Virus record (IMG/VR): IMGVR_UViG_3300021197_001264
Coordinates: 1 to 41,480 of that record
Strand: one strand, 5' to 3'
DNA from: a virus
DNA length: 41,480 nucleotides
Of this stretch, positions 8,657 to 23,977 are shown piece after piece (the stretch's first letter is position 1; every line of letters begins with the position of its first letter). Under the pieces are notes generated by a model. That model saw only the letters and a list, made by a program, of their open reading frames with translations, was not told the DNA's origin and ran no database searches. The translations under genes and the position numbers were made by a program.

Positions 8657-11470
8657 TTAACGAGTAGAACCAGAGGTAGAATCCCTAACTGCAACCTCAG
8701 ATAGGTTGGCAATTTGAGAGCTGTTAATGTCTTCTTCAAAAGGTCTTCTTAATGAAATCAACCTATCGGCATCATAAGCCGTGACGTTTACTTCATTTGC
8801 CTGATTGCCTCCAAGTATTTTAACGTTTCCGTTATCGTCATACCCAACAAATATTCCAACATGACGTGAATTTGGTCCTGCGCTTCCCTCTATTACAATA
8901 ATGTCTCCAACTTTACCTTCTGATTTATCAACAGGCGTTCCAATAGATTCAAATCTTCTTGCTCTAATAAGGTTGTAATTGTCCTCTCCTCGAACAACAT
9001 CCAGCGTGTCTGCGTGACCAGTGTCTGAAAGAATTTTAGATACAAATGCTGCACACCAAGCTCCGTTTCCTGTAGTCACATCAAGCCTTTCGGCTTCTGA
9101 TTCTCCAATCCATTCTGCCATGATCTCTTGCACGACATCTTTGTTTTCAACCTCGTTAGTCCCTATAAATCTAAGGGCAAGATCAACTGGAGACATTTCA
9201 GATAGCTCTTCTGCGGGTATCTCCATTGGGGAGTTTTGCATTTCTTGGACAACAAGCTCTTCTGACTCTGGTGTTGGCGTTGTTGCCTCTGAATTTATTA
9301 TTTCTTCAGCCGCTGGAGCGTTCGCAACAGCTATGTCCCTCTGTCTTTCCGATGGGTCCCTGACAACTCCTTCATCTTGCCTTTGTTCAACTTCTTCTTC
9401 TGTGGTCGGAATAACTTGAGCAGGACTTGGCTGAGTTGGCTCGACCCCAGGGCCCTGATTGCGGGCTTCTCTAACTTCCTGCCTCGTAGGCTCTTCGGCT
9501 TCAGGCGTTTCGCCCAGCTCTCGCTCCCCTCCCTGAAGGCCTCTTTCTTGCTGTGGTGATTCCTGACCTCGCCTTGGGGCTGGGGTTGGGGCATCTTCAC
9601 CCCTTTGAGATGGACCCTGAGTCCTCAATACAACAGTTCCTAGATCGTTTCTTCTTCTACCGTTTCTATCAAAGAATACAACGTTGTTCCCCTCAACCCT
9701 TGGCAATATACCTACGCCCTCCTCGTTTAAGACTCTGTCTTGCAACGCATTAACCTCTTGACGCACATCCTCTGGGAGGCCTTCTTGAATCTCAGCCGCT
9801 ATCTCAACGTTTCTGTCTGTAGTGGCATTGTCAGTCCCCTCCACGTACTGAGGCACACTAGTTCCAGCGTTTGGATTTTGCTCGGATAAATCTTGGAGCA
9901 AGCTCTGAGACCTTCTAGCCCTGTCGTCCCTAAGAATTGGACCCAAGTCAGGGTTTTGAGTGATGGTGTTGTATATCTCAAGCTCTTGAGTGCCAGGGGT
10001 CGGTGGCTCACCATTAAGATCCGTAAGATATATCGGCTTGTTGACAGTCCTAGACGTCTCAACCATTTGCCCCTGTGGCTCTCCATCCGAATACCCAAAC
10101 TCAGGCTCCATTGTCGTTACCTCGGTACTTACCATAGCCATAAGCCTTCCGTCGGGGCTATACCCTCCTCCTACAATTTTGTATGTGCCGTCGTCACTAG
10201 GCCCAGCTACTGTACTAATAGTTCCGTCCGCATTTGTAGTCCTAGTAGTGCCAGATTGAGTAGCAAGACCAGTGTTCATAGTAATAGGACTGTTAAGCCT
10301 ATTTACGTTATATGGTTGAGACGGTCCAAAGCCAGAGCCAGTATTTGTAACGTTTACGTCTTGGCCAACAGGCACTGCGTATCCGCCCCTTACTACCTTA
10401 TCGCTAAAACCTTCTTCTGAGCTACTTCTTTTGCCGCTATTTGTGTAAAGACCGTCAAAACGACTCAACTCTAAAAATCTCTTTTTTCCCTCATCAACGG
10501 CAACGCTAAAGTCCTTAATCTCAGGACCCTGAGATACATTACCTTGTTGGTCTACAATTTTTTGAAACACTTTAAGGTCTCCTGTTTCGGGATCCTCTTT
10601 TGTTATAAAACTGCCGTCTCTAAAGGCTTTCTTGTCATCATCACTAAAGTGTGTGATAAGGCCTTCATCCTCAAGAGTTCCAAGAAGCTGCAATCTGTGC
10701 GCTTTTCCGTTGTCATTATCCACAAGCACGTTGTCCAAATAGTACTCCTCTGCCCTGCCCTGATTCCATGAGCCGTCTCTAAAGGCAATGGCCGACGATG
10801 TGGCGCTATCCTGAGCCCAGTTGCCCAAGGTGCCTACATCTACCGCATTAGTTCCGTATCTATAAAAATGACTGGGGTCGGCAAACCCTGTAACTTGACT
10901 AAACGGGACTCTTTCACCTGTTGTTGGGTCAATAACAGTCCAGTTGCCGTCTGGCCCTTTTTCAGCGCTACCTTCTTTAAAAACGTTATTTAAGGCCGTG
11001 TTGTGTTGAGCCGCATAATCATCAAGTCCATAGCTAAGCTCCTCTCCAACCCCTAGATCACTGTTCCTGGCGGATCTAGCATTTGGATCTGTAGCAAGCT
11101 TATTTGCCACAGCGTCTTCATCGGACATAGATTCAGCGTGTGTTTTAAACTGACCATAAAGATTTTTAAGCCCCGCTAGCTTTACTTTGGCTTGAGTAGG
11201 GTCTAGCTGCCCACTAGCAATAAGTTGAGACACCTCGTCTACTTCTTGCTGAAATATTTCTGATCCAAACTGACCTATAGCTGACAAATCATAACCTGCG
11301 GCGGTATCTATATCCGTCCGCCGCATCTCTTCAGCCTTTTCAAACCGCCGAGCCATCTCCTTGTCTCGGACGTTCATGGTGGTTGCAACCTGCGTAACCC
11401 CAGTAAGATCTGCCTTTTCTACCTTATCAAACCGCCCAGGTAGTGGTGTTCCTCCAAATAGATTAGACAT
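8657..11470 (-). CDS. Internal virion protein with C-terminal NlpC/P60/CHAP-like peptidoglycan hydrolase
   Basis: This 937-residue protein joins a long virion part to a cell-wall hydrolase. Residues about 1-140 are helical and charged. The middle (about 350-600) is rich in G, T, N and S. Residues about 600-730 are a low-complexity E/P/Q/R linker. The last 170 residues look like the CHAP-like family TIGR02594: N-G-A-W-C-A-A-F-V with the likely catalytic cysteine at 806, a G-D-I-I-V-I strand, and S-R-H-V-G-I-F-V-G-Y with the likely catalytic histidine at 870, then ILGGNQANEVNVTAY. By analogy with T7 gp16 it may open peptidoglycan during DNA entry. The ATG at 11470 overlaps the previous stop by 8 bases, and the following gene has its own promoter. 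The hydrolase assignment is good; the virion location is inferred from context. Confidence 0.75.
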   Translation of the reverse strand: MSNLFGGTPLPGRFDKVEKADLTGVTQVATTMNVRDKEMARRFEKAEEMRRTDIDTAAGYDLSAIGQFGSEIFQQEVDEVSQLIASGQLDPTQAKVKLAGLKNLYGQFKTHAESMSDEDAVANKLATDPNARSARNSDLGVGEELSYGLDDYAAQHNTALNNVFKEGSAEKGPDGNWTVIDPTTGERVPFSQVTGFADPSHFYRYGTNAVDVGTLGNWAQDSATSSAIAFRDGSWNQGRAEEYYLDNVLVDNDNGKAHRLQLLGTLEDEGLITHFSDDDKKAFRDGSFITKEDPETGDLKVFQKIVDQQGNVSQGPEIKDFSVAVDEGKKRFLELSRFDGLYTNSGKRSSSEEGFSDKVVRGGYAVPVGQDVNVTNTGSGFGPSQPYNVNRLNSPITMNTGLATQSGTTRTTNADGTISTVAGPSDDGTYKIVGGGYSPDGRLMAMVSTEVTTMEPEFGYSDGEPQGQMVETSRTVNKPIYLTDLNGEPPTPGTQELEIYNTITQNPDLGPILRDDRARRSQSLLQDLSEQNPNAGTSVPQYVEGTDNATTDRNVEIAAEIQEGLPEDVRQEVNALQDRVLNEEGVGILPRVEGNNVVFFDRNGRRRNDLGTVVLRTQGPSQRGEDAPTPAPRRGQESPQQERGLQGGERELGETPEAEEPTRQEVREARNQGPGVEPTQPSPAQVIPTTEEEVEQRQDEGVVRDPSERQRDIAVANAPAAEEIINSEATTPTPESEELVVQEMQNSPMEIPAEELSEMSPVDLALRFIGTNEVENKDVVQEIMAEWIGESEAERLDVTTGNGAWCAAFVSKILSDTGHADTLDVVRGEDNYNLIRARRFESIGTPVDKSEGKVGDIIVIEGSAGPNSRHVGIFVGYDDNGNVKILGGNQANEVNVTAYDADRLISLRRPFEEDINSSQIANLSEVAVRDSTSGSTR

Positions 11471-12451: not shown

Positions 12452-13408
12452 TCACTTAGAATGATCTAAGTTTGTTGGTTCATAATTAACGTTTAACGAT
12501 ACAACCTCATAAGGATTTGATCCAAGAAGTATCTCAGCCTGTGCATACTGCCCGCGAGGAGGTGACCCGTTGATGTTTTGAGGTGAAATCTCCAGCAAAG
12601 TATATGTTTGCTTCGGAAGATCTGATACGGTTTGGGGTGTCCCAAAATTGAGGAATGTTAAAAATTTTTTTCCAAAAAAAGTATTATAGGTCTCAGTAAA
12701 TTCTCTTAAGGGGCCAAGAGATGAGTCGTTAAAACTCATTCCTGGACCAAAGTTTGTTATCTCATGATCTAAATCCCCTTCATCATTTGTTGATTGGGCT
12801 TGAAGTGAGTAAAACTTGTTGTCAGCACCCAACAAGATATACTTGCATTTCAAAAATACAGAAGATTGTTTTTGAGAAAGATTAGAATAATTTTCAATGT
12901 TCCAAAACCCCGACATTATTCGCACAACTGGTGGCCCTAATGGATTTGTTTGATTGGCTACGCATATAGCCTTTATATTGCTCCCATCAAGAAGTTTATT
13001 AGACAACCCAATGTGTCCATACATTACCCCTCCCTTGTCTTTTAATCGGCCTAGGCTAAACTGCTTATCGGGGGTGTTGTCTGAGTTAACTACAAAAGTG
13101 TTAAGGCCTTCAATATTGCTTGTTCCTTCTATAGAAAAAGATTTGTAAATCTTATTAGAAGACACCTTGTCATTGAAGGCTACAGACAACCCGCTGCCTC
13201 CAGCTGTGCCGTAAAAGTTAGTCCTTTTTGTTGAGTCAGTGGAGTTGTGCTTCCACAATAAAGAATCCTGTACGGATGAAACAATAGATGCCCCAGAAGA
13301 TGGGGAGGAAAAAAACTTCCTGCCAACGCTCTTCATAAAAGAAGCAAAAAAGCTGTATCTGGTTTTCCAGTACCCACCTTTGTGACTGTATGCTATAGTT
13401 GTAGACAT
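12452..13408 (-). CDS. Conserved tail-associated protein of nozzle neighbourhood
   Basis: This is a 318-residue protein with no membrane segments. Its N terminus reads IAYSHKGGYWKTRYSFFASF, followed by short motifs L-W-K-H-N, N-F-Y-G and SSNKIYKSFSIEGT. The rest is predicted to be mostly beta strands, ending in VVSLNVNYEPTNLD. Similar Y-S-x-K-G-x-W-K-T-R-Y-S-F proteins occur next to nozzle genes in Bacteroidota phages, as far as I recall, where they are taken as tail proteins. Here it starts 9 bases after the 1946-residue nozzle-like gene, so a part in the tail tip or its stabilisation is likely. The exact role is not known. Confidence 0.6.
   Translation of the reverse strand: MSTTIAYSHKGGYWKTRYSFFASFMKSVGRKFFSSPSSGASIVSSVQDSLLWKHNSTDSTKRTNFYGTAGGSGLSVAFNDKVSSNKIYKSFSIEGTSNIEGLNTFVVNSDNTPDKQFSLGRLKDKGGVMYGHIGLSNKLLDGSNIKAICVANQTNPLGPPVVRIMSGFWNIENYSNLSQKQSSVFLKCKYILLGADNKFYSLQAQSTNDEGDLDHEITNFGPGMSFNDSSLGPLREFTETYNTFFGKKFLTFLNFGTPQTVSDLPKQTYTLLEISPQNINGSPPRGQYAQAEILLGSNPYEVVSLNVNYEPTNLDHSK
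12455..12470 (-). other. Short perfect hairpin at the end of the 318-residue gene
   Basis: CTTAGA-TCAT-TCTAAG forms a six-pair stem and overlaps the last codons and stop of the gene. No run of U follows, so it is not a standard terminator. It lies 10 bases before the TATATTTG promoter. Confidence 0.4.
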
Positions 13409-13417
13409 GTTTTTATT

Positions 13418-16400
13418 TTAATTACTATCCCCTTGACCTAAACCACCATCATCATCGCCTCCAACTCCATCATCATCATCATCACCACCGCCCTCGTCTC
13501 CACCTGCGTCAAAGTCCTCAAACCCAGATGCAATTACATTGGGGTCTAAGGATGGTGGGACTGAAAATGCGTCAACGGTACCCCCGAAAGAGCCGAGAAG
13601 TGCCAACAAATCACTTACCGAAACAGAAAGGTCACCATTTACGTCTGCGGCCAAGCCAGGGTTTTGAAGCAAAAAGGCATTATAAATTTGCAAGCCCTGT
13701 TCTTGAGTTAATTGCTCATCTTCAAAAAATGTTTCTATGTCTGCAAAAGTAAATGCAGCGCCAGGGGGGTTGTTAATGATGTATGTATCAACAGCGGCTT
13801 GCTCAAATCCTGCAAGAGCCTCAGGGAAGTCTTGTGGAGTAATAACGCCATCGCCATCAGTGTCCAACGCTTCAAATTGAGACTGCAGGACAGCTTCGTT
13901 GTCCGAGGTAATATCTACATTCTCTTCTCCTGCAGTGAAGCCAGCCTCGTATGCTTGGAGAATGTCCTCGGTGGAGGTGTCAGGATTAGCAGCTACTCCA
14001 GCTGTATATCCATCAAAATAAACGCTATCGTTGTCACCTGTAATATCTACAGAGTCAACGCCATCTTGGAATGCTTGAGAAACATCGACAGAATTAACTC
14101 CTTGCTCATACCCCTCCTGATAATAAGATTGAATATCTACCCCAGCTGCGCCCTCCTCCGCTGCGGCCTCTTCGAAATCAGCAAGTGCTTCTGGAAAGTC
14201 TGATGGTCCAATAACACCATCACCATCGGTGTCATAAGAATCTGCAGCAATGGCAAAACCTTCTGCAACAATCTGCTCGTAATCCTCAAAAGTGAGGTCT
14301 CCGTCGCCAGTCGCATCAAATGTCTCTAATGCCTCGGCAAGGTCAGACCCTAGTCCTTCGCCTCCTGTGGAAAGCACTCCTGCATCAAAGCCATCTGTAA
14401 ACGCCTCAGCAACTAGTTCGGCATTATCGTTTGCGGCTGTTGTTAGCTCATCTACTTGCTCTTGAAGGTCTACAAGAGTCTCTGCAATAACATCAGGCGG
14501 CGGCGGGGGGTCTATTATCTCAAAGTCAAATGTAAAGTCGCTAGCTACTACATCAGCAGGCGCTACAAGGTTTGATCTAGTGGCTGCGCCTGGGGCAGCA
14601 AAAGATGTTAGAGTGTCTGTAACACTAATGATGAACTCCTGTTGGTCTGGATCAAAGCCACCCACAACCTTAAAAGCATCGCCTGCGCTCTCTGCGCTAG
14701 AAAGTATCTCCTCAAAGAAAGACCCCATGCCTTTCTCTGAAATTACATCTATACCAGCGGTAGGACTAAACCTATATACCTCTTTGTTCCTTACAGAGAC
14801 AAAGTAAATAGCACCAGCGGCATTCGTTACTGATTCTGGTACGTCGGTGCCATAAGCACCCGCGTAGTATTTTTCTGACCCTAGAACCTTTGAGGTGGTT
14901 ATTACAGTGTCGTTTCCAAGCGCATCAGAAAGAATGTTTCTTGATACTGGTATGCTACTGCACTTAAGCCTTTGTATGCAGAAGATGCTGTCGCTATAAT
15001 TTACCAAGTAGAATATCTCTCCGTCGTTGGTCTGAAGGTCTTTAAATGGCAGTTTAGCGTCGTTAAACGAGGTGTATCTAACAATGTTAGAGTTAGAGTT
15101 GGACCTATCAGAAAACTTCATAGAGCTGCCCCTAGCGTATTTGTTGGAGCTGCCTGCAGACTCTACATTATCACCGTCTCTTACGGGCTGTTCCTTTTGA
15201 ATAGCAACCCTTGGTTTTCCGTAAGGCAAAACATCAGCCCCAGGGAAAATATCAGTAAAGGCTTTAGACTCAAGGTGGAAAGACCTAAAGTTGGGTGACG
15301 TAGGCTCATCTATAGTGTTTGTTCCGTTTCCTATGAGACCTACAAAAGAGTTCGTGACTTCGTCAAAGTCTTGCATGTTTACTGCAATCTTTCTGAAATA
15401 CACATCACCTTGATCCACAAGTATAGAAAGCGTCTGGTGCTTTGGGACTGCAGGAGTGGTTGTTTCTCTTACCACATTGTATGTCCCTCCAAGCTCATAG
15501 TATATTCTGCTCTCTACCTCTTTTTTCTTTTGAGGACTAAAGATCTCAAAGACACACCTTCTATTCCAGAAGTTTGTGTTGTCATATACCTCTTGAGTTG
15601 TCTGTCCCTCCGATAAAGCCCCAGCCACATCTGAAAAAGAAAATCCAGAAGCCTCAGGGTTGTCTTTTATAATTAAGAATTGACCAGTTTTAGCTGGGTG
15701 AACCTCATCACCATCAACAGTTAGCGGGTTAGAAGTTGGATCGTCACCGAGTGTAACTGTGCCTAGAACCTGAAATTCGTATGGGTCGTTAGGCCTTGGG
15801 TATACAGCATTGGCGTCGTTATTAAAGAAACTAATAATACGCAATCTATCCCCCTCAGAAAAGGTGTAGAGGTCTTTATCTCCGTCAGAGCCCACCGCAC
15901 CAAAAGCCTTTGAGTAAGATATCTCGTTGTTGTGCTGCAAGTGGTTCAGAGACACATATATAACCCCGTTTTCATTATTTGAAGACTTGGGCACAAAGGC
16001 TGCTCCAGATGAGTACTGAACAAAATCAGAAACGGAGTTATTACCCCCGTAAAGGATTTTGTATGTATGGGCCCAGTCGGGAGGAGGTGTAGTGTCATCT
16101 ATATTGATAACTATATTGGCTATCCCTGGGTCTGAAATTTGTCTTACAAAGTGAGATCCCAGCGGTACAGGCTCTCCTGGACGACCTCTTTCGTCGTAAT
16201 AGAGTATTGCAAAGCTATGATCGCAATGTCTTTTAAAAGACCTTCCTACTGCGCTAGATGTTGTAGATGGTGTTGTAAAAGAGAAAGAAGTTCTGCCTAC
16301 TTCTACTTCAGGAACAGTCCTCCCAATAATATCGGCTTTGTCTCCCTCACTAAATTGTTTGTAACTAAAGGCACCGTTAAGCACTGCAGTGGGAGAGTCA

Positions 16401-19258
16401 CTAGTAGAACCTTCAGAAAGAAGGAATTGATCATTATTTCTTCCAGCATACTCTGTTCCGTAAAAGATTCCATACCAGTAGCTTAGACTAAGTCTTCCTC
16501 CCTGATAATTCTGCCTTATATTAACTTCCCCGTCTACAATAGAATATGGGCCTTCAAGTGCTCCAGAGTTGACATACGGGTCCTCTATTCTTAGGATATC
16601 GTTGGTTGAAAAATTCAGATACCCAATAATTTTTTCTTTGAAGATGTTTCTCCCGACCGTGCCTCGATCATCAATGAACTCGTGAGGTCCAAAAGCTTGC
16701 CCCTTAACATTTGTGTACCCAGATAAACCAGGCACAATCCTGTGATCAGAATCTATCTCAGTATTGCCCGAAACAAATAAACCGCCCTCTTCATTAACCT
16801 GTACACCCTGAAATCCACGGAACAAACCTATGTAGTCTGTAGGACCAAAGTCTGGTGCCACTTCAACATTTCCAGAGTTTATAAAACTATGAGGAAGCCC
16901 TGGGTAGTCAAACGTATTTCCTCCGTTATATTCAGCATCGCCAACTTGAGCTTCAGGATTAACCGTTATTGGACCCATTTTGTTTTCTAAAAAGAAAACA
17001 TTCATATCAAGACCAGCCTCTTTTTCTGGAACCTCTGGGGTATCAAACAAGCATATACTTCTTACGGCGTCTTGATTTGCTGCATCGTCTAAAAAATCTT
17101 TGGTAAAGTAAATCCACCCTCTGCTGCCGCTACGAGTGACCCTAGGTATCATAGTAACAGTTTCTACTTGCCTTAGATTGCTTACATGAAGGCTAAACAC
17201 AGGTCCAATATTTATGTCTGTGTCCGATGAAGTCTTTATGGCATTGTTTGTTTTTTGGCTATATCTTAATTGAAAAGTTGCCTGAGCTTTATTTATAGCA
17301 AAGAATCCTGAAGGAGGACAGTTTTCGGAGCCTGAGTAATTATTTTGAGTAAAACAACTCACTACAGTTCTTGCTCTTTTGTCAGAATCAGATATAAAAC
17401 CATATCCGTCGCTTGAGCTCATAAGCTGGTCTATCGAAACCGTAGGTGACTGACCAGCTGCTATTTGAGCAAGCAAATCTAAAGACTCCTGATTAGTGTC
17501 TCCTATGAAAAAGTCAGCCCTTGGCTCGCCTTGAGCGTCTTGATTTCCAAAGAATTGTATCAGAACGTTTTCAATAAATGCTTTTACGTTGCTAGAGCCA
17601 CTTATGTTTTCGGTAATACGAAACTTAGCCCTAAACTTCACAAACTCACTGGGAACAATAAAAGGATTAGATGCGGAGGTTCCAAACTTTATGTTTTGCA
17701 CCACGAGGTCGCCGATGTTGTTGTTTGGGTTTGTAACAGTCCATGATGCGTCAAGCTGGCCAACACCAGCGTTATTTTGAAACACCATAGGGGAATGGTT
17801 TCCGAGACTATTGATGTTGTTACCCTCTATTCCTTTGTAATTTACTGAAGCGCTTTCAGAATCAGGCCTTTCATCACCTAATCCAAAGCCACAGTTTTGA
17901 AAGTTGTGAAAAGATTGAACGCTGTTGTACAGCTCAAAGTTGCCATCAGGCTCAACGGCAAAAGATATGTCGGCTATGCCTCCCTGCGGTAGCTCTGAAG
18001 GCAAGTCAGAAAGATCAAACTGATAAGAAGCCCTTCTGTTAAAAACTTTAGAGTTGTCGTCATAGCTGCTAGATGCTACTAAGTTTTCTCCAATTAAAGA
18101 AACTGTATCGCCAGAATCCTCTAAAAAACAAGGAGTTACAAGCGACTTTATTCCTATGCGTATGTCTACAAAATCTTCTGGGCGAGGGACGTCAACAGTA
18201 GAGAAGCTAGCTTTTACAGCTCCAGTATCGTACCCCTCTTCATAGTTTCCGTATATAAGCCTGTCGTTTATAACTGACTGAGCCTTAGCCTTTCTAGGCA
18301 AGGCGTCATTTAGCTTGTTCTGATCTTCTTCAGGGACACCTGTAAGTACAGAGTCGTTGTAAAAGTCAAATATGAGCTCATCAGCAGCTGCCTTTTCAGA
18401 CACAGTAAAAAAGGAGCCATTGTTCCCTATCCTGACAAGAAGCCTTATTTTTTCTATGTTGCCCGTATAGTTCTCAATAGAGTTTACGGTTTTGGGTATG
18501 GTGACCCTTATAAGGTTTGCTGCCTCTAGGTTAGGGTCTGACAGAGACCCTTGAGAAAGGTATGGCGGTGGCACCGCTACATTAGAGTACGTAGAAATAG
18601 CGCTTTCTTCACCCCCTTTGTATATGCACTGATACGCAAATTGAAAACCCTCTACAGATCTAAAGTTTACGGACTTACCTGAGTCAGCTGTAAACTCCCA
18701 TGTTGGCGGGTGCATAGGCGTCTTCGGGCAGGCCGTTATAAAGTCTATCTTTTTTGCAGCGCTGTCCCCGCTTGCTGGAGCTATACCAGCCTTAAGAGAA
18801 AGTTTTTTGGGCTCGGTGCGACCATCAGTAAAATACAGTATGATGCTTCCGTCGCTATGGTATACTATATCCCCCTTTACAAAATCGTCATGAAGAAACT
18901 GAAAATGCTCCGAGGTGTATACAGCTTCAAAAGAATCTGATGATGTAACCTTGTAAACTCCCTGTTTGCCTGCATTTGTGCAAAAAACAAAAACATAGAC
19001 TTCTGCGTTTACCTCATCGGAAACGCTACCAACAACCCTAAAAGACTCTCCAGCCCCAATAAGAGCAACATCCTGACCCAAGGCATCATTACCCTTTACT
19101 GGCTTTATAACACCTGCATCACCTGTGCCAGAATTAGAAGCTGTCTCTGCATCAAAATCATCAATAGAGATATTGATGGCATTGTACATCTCCGTCTTGT
19201 CTAGAAGCCTTGCATCTTTTGATCTATTAAGCTTCCTTGGGATTATCTTATCTATCAT
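13418..19258 (-). CDS. Giant tail nozzle/muzzle-like protein with C-terminal calcium-loop extension
   Basis: This is a 1946-residue protein. The first 1570 residues are beta-rich with repeated short strands (for example VYVFVFCTNAGKQGVYKV and IILYFTDGRTEPKKLSL), as in T7 gp12-type nozzles and the larger crAss-like muzzle proteins. It directly follows the connector-like genes, which supports a place at the tail end. At about 1580 a P-P-P-P-P hinge leads to a 365-residue extension. It starts with a coiled coil, then has calcium loops at residues 1648, 1676, 1799 and 1872, mixed with repeats of G-(Y/F)-x-x-G and S-V-D-I-T-x-D-N. It ends in a D/G-rich tail. The extension is probably surface exposed and calcium dependent, perhaps for adsorption. 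The ATG at 19258 overlaps the previous stop (ATGA). The nozzle role is inferred from position and fold-like pattern. Confidence 0.7.
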   Translation of the reverse strand: MIDKIIPRKLNRSKDARLLDKTEMYNAINISIDDFDAETASNSGTGDAGVIKPVKGNDALGQDVALIGAGESFRVVGSVSDEVNAEVYVFVFCTNAGKQGVYKVTSSDSFEAVYTSEHFQFLHDDFVKGDIVYHSDGSIILYFTDGRTEPKKLSLKAGIAPASGDSAAKKIDFITACPKTPMHPPTWEFTADSGKSVNFRSVEGFQFAYQCIYKGGEESAISTYSNVAVPPPYLSQGSLSDPNLEAANLIRVTIPKTVNSIENYTGNIEKIRLLVRIGNNGSFFTVSEKAAADELIFDFYNDSVLTGVPEEDQNKLNDALPRKAKAQSVINDRLIYGNYEEGYDTGAVKASFSTVDVPRPEDFVDIRIGIKSLVTPCFLEDSGDTVSLIGENLVASSSYDDNSKVFNRRASYQFDLSDLPSELPQGGIADISFAVEPDGNFELYNSVQSFHNFQNCGFGLGDERPDSESASVNYKGIEGNNINSLGNHSPMVFQNNAGVGQLDASWTVTNPNNNIGDLVVQNIKFGTSASNPFIVPSEFVKFRAKFRITENISGSSNVKAFIENVLIQFFGNQDAQGEPRADFFIGDTNQESLDLLAQIAAGQSPTVSIDQLMSSSDGYGFISDSDKRARTVVSCFTQNNYSGSENCPPSGFFAINKAQATFQLRYSQKTNNAIKTSSDTDINIGPVFSLHVSNLRQVETVTMIPRVTRSGSRGWIYFTKDFLDDAANQDAVRSICLFDTPEVPEKEAGLDMNVFFLENKMGPITVNPEAQVGDAEYNGGNTFDYPGLPHSFINSGNVEVAPDFGPTDYIGLFRGFQGVQVNEEGGLFVSGNTEIDSDHRIVPGLSGYTNVKGQAFGPHEFIDDRGTVGRNIFKEKIIGYLNFSTNDILRIEDPYVNSGALEGPYSIVDGEVNIRQNYQGGRLSLSYWYGIFYGTEYAGRNNDQFLLSEGSTSDSPTAVLNGAFSYKQFSEGDKADIIGRTVPEVEVGRTSFSFTTPSTTSSAVGRSFKRHCDHSFAILYYDERGRPGEPVPLGSHFVRQISDPGIANIVINIDDTTPPPDWAHTYKILYGGNNSVSDFVQYSSGAAFVPKSSNNENGVIYVSLNHLQHNNEISYSKAFGAVGSDGDKDLYTFSEGDRLRIISFFNNDANAVYPRPNDPYEFQVLGTVTLGDDPTSNPLTVDGDEVHPAKTGQFLIIKDNPEASGFSFSDVAGALSEGQTTQEVYDNTNFWNRRCVFEIFSPQKKKEVESRIYYELGGTYNVVRETTTPAVPKHQTLSILVDQGDVYFRKIAVNMQDFDEVTNSFVGLIGNGTNTIDEPTSPNFRSFHLESKAFTDIFPGADVLPYGKPRVAIQKEQPVRDGDNVESAGSSNKYARGSSMKFSDRSNSNSNIVRYTSFNDAKLPFKDLQTNDGEIFYLVNYSDSIFCIQRLKCSSIPVSRNILSDALGNDTVITTSKVLGSEKYYAGAYGTDVPESVTNAAGAIYFVSVRNKEVYRFSPTAGIDVISEKGMGSFFEEILSSAESAGDAFKVVGGFDPDQQEFIISVTDTLTSFAAPGAATRSNLVAPADVVASDFTFDFEIIDPPPPPDVIAETLVDLQEQVDELTTAANDNAELVAEAFTDGFDAGVLSTGGEGLGSDLAEALETFDATGDGDLTFEDYEQIVAEGFAIAADSYDTDGDGVIGPSDFPEALADFEEAAAEEGAAGVDIQSYYQEGYEQGVNSVDVSQAFQDGVDSVDITGDNDSVYFDGYTAGVAANPDTSTEDILQAYEAGFTAGEENVDITSDNEAVLQSQFEALDTDGDGVITPQDFPEALAGFEQAAVDTYIINNPPGAAFTFADIETFFEDEQLTQEQGLQIYNAFLLQNPGLAADVNGDLSVSVSDLLALLGSFGGTVDAFSVPPSLDPNVIASGFEDFDAGGDEGGGDDDDDGVGGDDDGGLGQGDSN
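13421..14520 (-). other. EF-hand/dockerin-like repeat region of the nozzle-like protein
   Basis: Four loops fit the calcium pattern D-x-(D/N/T)-x-D-x-x-x-x-x-x-D: DATGDGDLTFED (14282-14317), DTDGDGVIGPSD (about 14198-14233), DTDGDGVITPQD (about 13829-13864) and DVNGDLSVSVSD (about 13610-13645). The two middle loops are followed by nearly the same helix, F-P-E-A-L-A-(D/G)-F-E. Position 12 is Asp, as in dockerins, rather than the Glu usual in EF hands. Between loops two and three lie copies of G-(Y/F)-x-x-G and S-V-D-I-T-x-D-N. Confidence 0.8.
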
Positions 19259-23248: not shown

Positions 23249-23977
23249 TCAGCTATTGTTGATTACCAAGAAGTGAATCTTGCTTGCAGTTGCAGACGTA
23301 TTCCCGCTTGAGTGTGGATTCACCAAACTTATTTTAAAGCTTCCTCCTGCGATTGTATGAACAGCAGCAGCAAGTTGAACATTGTTAGTTGTGTTTTCAT
23401 CTTGCACCGTTATCAGAATTACTGAATCAGCCTGAACTGTTGAATTAGTTACTGTAAATTCAGCATTTGTTGTAGCATTAAGAACAGCCGCTGCTAGTTG
23501 TATTACGCCAGACGTAGCATTGATTTCTACAGCCGTAGTATGATTCGACGCTTGAGTTACAGTCCCTGAATTGGTATGAATAATACCATGATCAGCAGCA
23601 GTAATAACAAAGTCACCATTGGTGGCGACAAAGTTACCAGAACTAGCGGTAATCCCACCCGAAGCACCTGTCACGTTGTGAGTAATGCCTGTAACAGAAG
23701 TAATGTTAGCGTCAATGTAAGCGCTGTTAACGTCATCTGCAATAACAACTACAGACTCTCTTGCGAGAGAAATAGCGTTACCAATAGATGTCATTACAGT
23801 CTTGGCAGTGCCACTAGCAACATCAATAGTAACTTGGCTGACTTCACCTGTGCTTCCATTCATGTCCTCAAAGTTGAGAACAATAGTGTCGGCGTCGGAG
23901 TCGTCTATACCAAGCAAGCGATCTGAAGGCACAATGTATTGTGCGGTAGCAGAATCGGCAAAATATAGATACTTCAT
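23249..23977 (-). CDS. Beta-rich virion (capsid-associated) protein
   Basis: This is a 242-residue protein. The N-terminal part, YLYFADSATAQYIVPSDRLL, is a conserved small-domain start in marine phage virion genes: D-x-x-x-x-x-Y-x-x-P-x-x-x-L-x-G-I, then D-T-I-V-L-N-F-E. The C-terminal half reads A-E-F-T-V-T-N-S-T-V, S-V-I-L-I-T-V-Q, G-G-S-F-K-I-S-L-V-N and H-F-L-V-I, a beta fold widely found in phage structural proteins. Composition is T/S/N/A-rich with hardly any charged residues in the middle. It lies 4 bases after the 159-residue gene and ends at a terminator. A decoration protein of the head is most likely, but a fibre role is possible. Confidence 0.6.
   Translation of the reverse strand: MKYLYFADSATAQYIVPSDRLLGIDDSDADTIVLNFEDMNGSTGEVSQVTIDVASGTAKTVMTSIGNAISLARESVVVIADDVNSAYIDANITSVTGITHNVTGASGGITASSGNFVATNGDFVITAADHGIIHTNSGTVTQASNHTTAVEINATSGVIQLAAAVLNATTNAEFTVTNSTVQADSVILITVQDENTTNNVQLAAAVHTIAGGSFKISLVNPHSSGNTSATASKIHFLVINNS

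Follow-up and report, generated by a model that had tools for sequence, protein, structure and literature searches.

The window analysed here, a 41-kb virus record taken over its full 41,480 nucleotides, raises the question of why a tail protein should end in a long acidic extension carrying calcium-type loops. A sequence-only reading of the locus had described a 1946-residue tail nozzle with a C-terminal extension of EF-hand- or dockerin-type loops behind a PPPPP hinge. The ORF (13418-19258, reverse strand) and the hinge (residues 1584-1588, window positions 14495-14509) are as it claimed, and Pfam, PHROGs and the homologues agree with its description. The protein matches phrog_14478 (virion structural protein, 1.3e-67), and its GenBank homologues found by tblastn are structural proteins of the Cellulophaga phages phi19:3 and phi38:1 and of the Flavobacterium elemo phages. 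Also among the tblastn matches is phi13:2, which the phicrAss001 structure paper (PMC10172136) uses as outgroup when analysing the crassviruses. In several of the homologous phages the gene comes after terminase, portal and other structural genes, and upstream of it in the window lie terminase, portal, capsid-type and tail-fibre-type matches. By the homology of its body (residues 1-1545, the end at about 1545 being set by profile mapping) to known muzzle and virion structural proteins, the window protein is a crassvirus-type muzzle, as the tail-tip protein is named in the phicrAss001 structure paper (PMC10172136), and the window phage, a marine one, is related to the crAss phages of the gut. 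Homology to the structure in PMC10172136 would make the window muzzle a hexamer positioned at the tail tip, and the isolated relatives and shared modules point to a Flavobacteriales host, nearly all other relatives being metagenomic contigs. Sequence searches of the PDB with the whole window muzzle, the phi38:1 muzzle and the second-chain profile described below matched no muzzle; among the PDB comparisons it was found by fold comparison only. Downstream of the muzzle genes lies a 937-residue protein (8657-11470, reverse strand) with a C-terminal CHAP domain (1.7e-6) that matches phrog_1259, baseplate hub/tail lysozyme, at 2.8e-22.

The muzzle is divided between two ORFs, the ATG of the second starting 9 bases past the stop codon of the first (Table 1). 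Pfam PF25729 (crAss_MUZ_C) matches this next ORF weakly (0.046, below cut-off; 0.012 for its counterpart in the relative L002); a custom profile firms up the assignment in both (2.7e-9 and 1.5e-9, respectively), and a clade profile matches the second chains at 1e-25 to 1e-164. For the AlphaFold model of the second chain (47 alignment rows, mean pLDDT 66, pTM 0.61) the top two matches in the PDB are residues 1198-1371 of the phicrAss001 muzzle (7qol_P and 7qok_A, Z 8.8 and 8.6), the next best, unrelated match scoring Z 5.6. As judged from this predicted fold, the second chain is confirmed as the missing C-terminal domain of the muzzle, apparently supplied in trans. The separate downstream ORF is found in 53/53 complete muzzles of the window's clade. 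Outside it, phi19:3 carries PF25729 on its own gene, gp121 (1.5e-19), and ctfjg026 has the domain two genes downstream, while PF25729 is fused at the muzzle end in phi38:1 (1.1e-18) and elemoF (4.6e-18). Where the fused chain reads KEYVMHEKGVFTTAYSN, the split muzzles run QQEFIISV, arm and stop before resuming at MSTTIAYSHK, the second chain opening with MSTTIAYSHKGGYWKTRYSF. The break falls in one turn, short in several fused relatives, from which the arm also departs and which, on the nozzle fold, would join two propeller strands. Four unsplit muzzles (L014, L016, L018 and L027) carry insertions at the exact turn where the window muzzle is split. The extension had been called unusual, which understates the case: in the clade variable arms at this point are the rule, and the muzzle is divided there.

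Table 1. Muzzle chains, arm features and stand-alone dockerin-like protein of the window
Feature	Position in window	Strand	Basis or remark
First chain of split crassvirus-type muzzle (tail nozzle)	13418..19258	-	1946 aa; phrog_14478, homologues, profile
Second muzzle chain, 318 aa, C-terminal domain in trans	12452..13408	-	Profiles, AlphaFold fold match
C-terminal arm, aa 1546-1946, acidic	13421..14623	-	Profile-mapped body end, composition
PPPPP hinge, then predicted long helix (aa 1588-1625)	14384..14509	-	Sequence; model
EF-hand loop 1, DATGDGDLTFED, aa 1648	14282..14317	-	Pattern; EF-hand_1 stretch
EF-hand loop 2, DTDGDGVIGPSD, aa 1676	14198..14233	-	Pattern; Pfam search of arm
Pattern match only, DITGDNDSVYFD, aa 1738	14012..14047	-	Not regarded as a calcium site
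EF-hand loop 3, DTDGDGVITPQD, aa 1799	13829..13864	-	EF-hand_7 pair 9e-13, EF-hand_1 4.8e-11
Terminal dockerin-like module, aa 1833-1898	13565..13762	-	Half Dockerin_1 match, clade alignment, model
Asp/Gly-rich tail, aa 1911-1946	13421..13528	-	Sequence; pLDDT 48-53
Stand-alone dockerin-like protein, 54 aa	37309..37473	-	Stop codon overlaps terminase gene start

The arm comprises 401 residues, 23% of them Asp or Glu and one Lys or Arg; the end at 14520 previously given for the region is out of frame, the in-frame arm reaching 14623. Lys and Arg are absent from residue 1562 to the protein end, a run of 385 residues, the next longest such run in the window being 141. That second most extreme run lies in a 242-residue protein (23249-23977, reverse strand) with 2.5% Lys+Arg. 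Across the 52 clade arms of at least 60 residues, mean Lys+Arg is 2.7% in the arm against 7.8% in the body and is lower in the arm in 52/52 members, and arm length in the clade varies from 33 to 1034 residues. The structure model of the window arm is weak overall (mean pLDDT 65, pTM 0.27) and better in the terminal module; the helix after the hinge (model residues 5-42) has block pLDDT 71-92. The arm middle changes completely between close relatives. The arm of the closest relative in which it is complete (L002/L179, 77% identical over 647 tree columns) has helical repeats and lacks the window's three EF-hands, and that of L191 is of different, Lys/Arg-poor sequence. Three clade arms match ASH, an Ig-like family, and five carry a GCTDPxAxNYDPxA repeat resembling repeats of Flavobacteriales proteins. 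The window arm alone has no match in annotated phages (tblastn) or in IMG/VR, so its EF-hand part is without a close viral relative in those two sets. A literature search on dockerins in phage tails or virions and on marine muzzle relatives, covering titles and abstracts and subscription papers poorly, found no such arm described.

The loop pattern D-x-[DNT]-x-D-x6-D matches at residues 1648, 1676, 1738, 1799 and 1872, with a trivial extra match at 1926 in the Asp-rich tail. The five matches outside the tail compare with a shuffle mean of 0.13, and five were reached in 0/20,000 composition-preserving shuffles; the four loops of the sequence-only reading are evidently those at 1648, 1676, 1799 and 1872. 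At 1738 the hydrophobic residue of position 8 is replaced by Ser and there is no family match; this site belongs to a G-x-x-x-G..SVD(I/V) repeat, where pLDDT is <50. The arm holds three EF-hand_1 stretches at the arm-search threshold, one of them loop 1, where EF-hand_7 also gives a weaker, sub-threshold match (14267-14350). The best EF-hand_7 match strengthens from 9e-13 in the whole protein, where it scores 48.8 bits against a curated Pfam cut-off of 30, to 5.6e-16 in the arm. Two loops are followed by the near-identical helices already remarked on, DFPEALADFEEAA (residue 1687) and DFPEALAGFEQAA (residue 1810). The repeats at 1676 and 1799 are identical at 20/33 residues and 60/99 bases with 11 synonymous codon differences, and by this degree of identity in protein and DNA the two units are an old duplication.

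Conservation among homologues, on which the calcium-loop claim had been staked, divides the four loops. The Asp residues of the first three are not conserved, these EF-hands having no counterpart in the arms of the four complete relatives nearest to the window, whereas those of the fourth are, and the dockerin-type hand recurs. The family assignment divides likewise: Asp at position 12 had been read as the dockerin choice throughout, but Pfam classes the first three loops as EF-hands and the dockerin reading stands for the last only, as a half match. The predicted structure places helices on the flanks of all four loops, giving the helix-loop-helix expected of them, with confidence in the terminal module only (pLDDT 76-91, against 56-83 outside it). 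Fold comparison with the arm gives weak matches, mostly to EF-hand proteins (best Z 5.8), as does Foldseek, whose best E of 0.7 is not significant.

The terminal module consists of a degenerate first hand followed by DVNGDLSVSVSD-LLALLGSFG, with the loop of residue 1872 at 13610-13645. Its match to Dockerin_1 (PF00404) covers profile positions 30-52 of 57, at 0.034 in the whole protein and 0.0048 in the arm, and misses the cut-off (14.8-17.5 bits against 22.9); having one intact hand, it lacks the two tandem hands of Dockerin type I. Two tandem hands are present in the modules of L223, L231 and L209, and L223 and L231 exceed the Pfam Dockerin_1 cut-off, L223 that of the GC-type dockerin too. 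The GC-type dockerin family NF041540 has no match in the window, and its cut-off is passed by 5/48 clade records. In the model the module (residues 251-310) has block pLDDT within the range given above, and in the clade alignment Asp1, Asp12 and the Leu residues are conserved. A profile of this alignment finds solved dockerins, namely CelD 1clc and 4cj0 (5e-4) and 2y3n (1e-3). A strict terminal-hand pattern occurs in the last 150 residues of 21/48 non-redundant arms (shuffle mean 0.016, maximum 1) and in 0/487 pieces of the body, and a looser one in 29/49, several other arms having degenerate forms by eye. L190, L192, L193 and L194 carry the module on the second chain in place of the muzzle arm, and L199 carries it on both. 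Some arms, for example those of L222 and L234, have no recognisable module, and some clade members have none on either chain. On the body tree there are about ten gains or losses of the module, its distribution is more clustered than in any of 500 shuffles, and none of the five members of the window's own clade lacks it.

In a scan of 84,980 bacterial and archaeal species, each represented by one genome, the matches listed for the same module came mostly from uncultured organisms, largely from marine Flavobacteriales and Crocinitomicaceae, followed by Planctomycetes. Among the matches listed, the C-terminus can be read in 80 module ORFs, most of which belong to MAGs of Flavobacteriales and Planctomycetes; the module lies at most 10 residues from the stop in 59 of the 80, and a crude test finds a signal-like N-terminus in 49/54 of the listed ORFs. 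In uncultured marine Flavobacteriales (L260-L339) many secreted proteins end in C-P-x-D-x-N-G-D-G..DLLxFLxxFGxxC, often preceded by NYDxxAxxDDGSC repeats. This ending looks like a C-terminal anchoring signal with no classical cohesin to match. GC-type dockerin matches number 8-32 per genome in 19 Flavobacteriales genomes picked for having the motif. The Cohesin family is matched in 0/26 phage records and in 1/19 of these dockerin-bearing genomes; the cohesin-type contact proposed for the arm thus found no backing, but an unrelated receptor is still compatible with these data. A simple pattern for T9SS-type tails is absent from the dockerin-bearing host ORFs among the matches listed (0/80), and the same Flavobacteriales genomes carry many T9SS-type tails on other proteins.

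Viral sequences also have the module inside other ORFs, in mid-protein, and as free-standing proteins of about 50 residues. The window and several of its relatives possess a free mini-dockerin gene. The window's 54-residue protein finds muzzle arms of relatives by tblastn, and its counterpart at the same place in the phage L187 is 87% identical, with 23 synonymous versus 7 non-synonymous codon differences; the protein is a possible partner. A second free mini-dockerin family of 53-66 residues, MWSTYIMDLLLLL..DFNGDGFI..DFL..LSQQPP, occurs in five related phages (L254, L256, L257, L258 and L259), with no terminase match within the surrounding 3.5 kb. About 25 other viral contigs (L095-L175) encode nearly identical dockerin-like proteins of 49-50 residues, MTIDIYYLLSWLAYFG..DLNGDGYVTIADLLEFLTLFGTTI, some of them adjoining a second copy of 41-50 residues with a PPPY motif.

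What, then, is the arm for? We lean, with slightly better than even confidence, towards a calcium-stabilised adsorption arm at the tail tip that docks by its terminal module. The split muzzle consists of two chains, the 1946-residue body with its long acidic arm and the 318-residue product of the next gene, which would complete the C-terminal domain. If it is hexameric like the phicrAss001 muzzle, six arms would hang at the tail tip, where the crassvirus muzzle is located (PMC10172136). Along each arm the proline hinge, helix, three EF-hand loops and dockerin-like hand would follow in that order, and calcium in seawater would be expected to load the loops, keeping an arm free of basic residues folded. 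The terminal module would most likely dock on a surface protein of marine Flavobacteriales, perhaps the receptor to which dockerin-like anchors at the C-termini of host proteins bind, with the variable middle setting reach and specificity and the terminal module being the part kept across the clade. The divided muzzle, the loops, the recurring terminal module and its presence in secreted proteins of Flavobacteriales are observed; the hexameric state, loading with calcium, position of the arm at the tip, docking and identity of the host are proposed. Counting against the proposal are the curated dockerin cut-offs that the window module does not reach, its missing flanking cysteines, the lack of a cohesin partner in the genomes searched, arms such as those of L222 and L234 without a recognisable module, and the weak arm model. 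A stronger form of it, in which the tail tip mimics the host's C-terminal dockerin-like anchor and so plugs into a receptor for host proteins, we hold to be unlikely; under such mimicry the free mini-dockerin protein would act as a competitor or adaptor.

EF-hands commonly work in pairs, and the terminal module might instead be a joint inside the virion, pairing with a neighbouring arm, the second chain or the 54-residue protein and so aiding assembly of the two-chain muzzle or holding its arms together. The four phages with the module on the second chain, as though the two chains were interchangeable carriers, and the free mini-dockerin gene are in keeping with a joint, which we regard as possible if on the doubtful side. 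It fits poorly with the clade members in which neither chain has a recognisable module, with L199, which has one on both, with the variable distance at which the arm is attached, and with phi19:3, whose muzzle is split too without the clade module and with a Big_9/cadherin-like domain. Linkers held by calcium are common among secreted proteins of marine organisms, and the loops could also be scaffolding of this kind taken from host genes, with binding elsewhere in the arm and no specific docking. Such a role would suit an arm middle that is wholly different between close relatives and a module that also turns up mid-ORF in other viral proteins; yet the module is mostly near the C-terminus and is the sole part kept over the deep tree, as filler need not be, and we consider scaffolding distinctly unlikely. 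That the loops are chance products of low-complexity acidic sequence, as the Asp/Gly-rich residues 1911-1946 with their one trivial pattern match might suggest, or that the arrangement is an assembly artefact, is improbable in the extreme. Both are refuted, the former by shuffles of the same composition, which never give the observed count, and by family matches down to 5.6e-16, the latter by the recurrence of module and split in dozens of independent contigs.

The context, a split muzzle and a recurring module, is a stronger finding than the loops themselves. If the adsorption-arm proposal is true, marine crAss-like phages place fast-changing host-contact modules on the free end that the muzzle split creates, in a turn where unsplit relatives accept insertions too. 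It would also offer a way into an uncharacterised anchoring system that abundant marine Flavobacteriales possess with almost no classical cohesin, and should the arms mimic the anchor, phage arms that copy it could serve as bait to capture the anchor's receptor.

Several known systems resemble parts of this arrangement. Like EF-hand pairs (PF13499), the window's three loops read D-x-[DT]-G-D-G with a hydrophobic position 8 and score over the curated cut-off; they differ in having Asp at position 12, where Glu is usual, in the 28 residues that separate the first two loops and in belonging to a phage tail protein. With the GC-type dockerin NF041540 and Dockerin type I (PF00404) the terminal module has in common a calcium-type loop and DLLxFLxxFG helix near the C-terminus, but the flanking cysteines of the host GC-type version are missing in the window. 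The cellulosome offers the cohesin-dockerin pair, of which the clade module profile finds the dockerins of cellulosomal enzymes, whereas the phages gave no cohesin match, nor did most of the Flavobacteriales genomes with dockerins that were searched. For the muzzle itself the reference is phicrAss001 gp44 (7qok, 7qol; PF25729), to which the window muzzle is homologous by family and position and whose residues 1198-1371 the 318-residue downstream protein is predicted to resemble in fold, although the C-terminal domain is a separate gene in the window. The fused muzzles of phi38:1 and elemoF lack the 401-residue arm that the window's first chain carries. A parallel in organisation is the Cellulophaga phage phi19:3 (Baltivirus), an isolated, cultivable phage with a split muzzle, divided at the same place as that of the window into a body (gp120; L005 9001-13842) and a MUZ_C chain (gp121). 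Its body is 24% identical to the window body over the aligned third, and its first chain has an extra domain at the same position as the window arm, there of the Big_9/cadherin-like and not the EF-hand/dockerin type.
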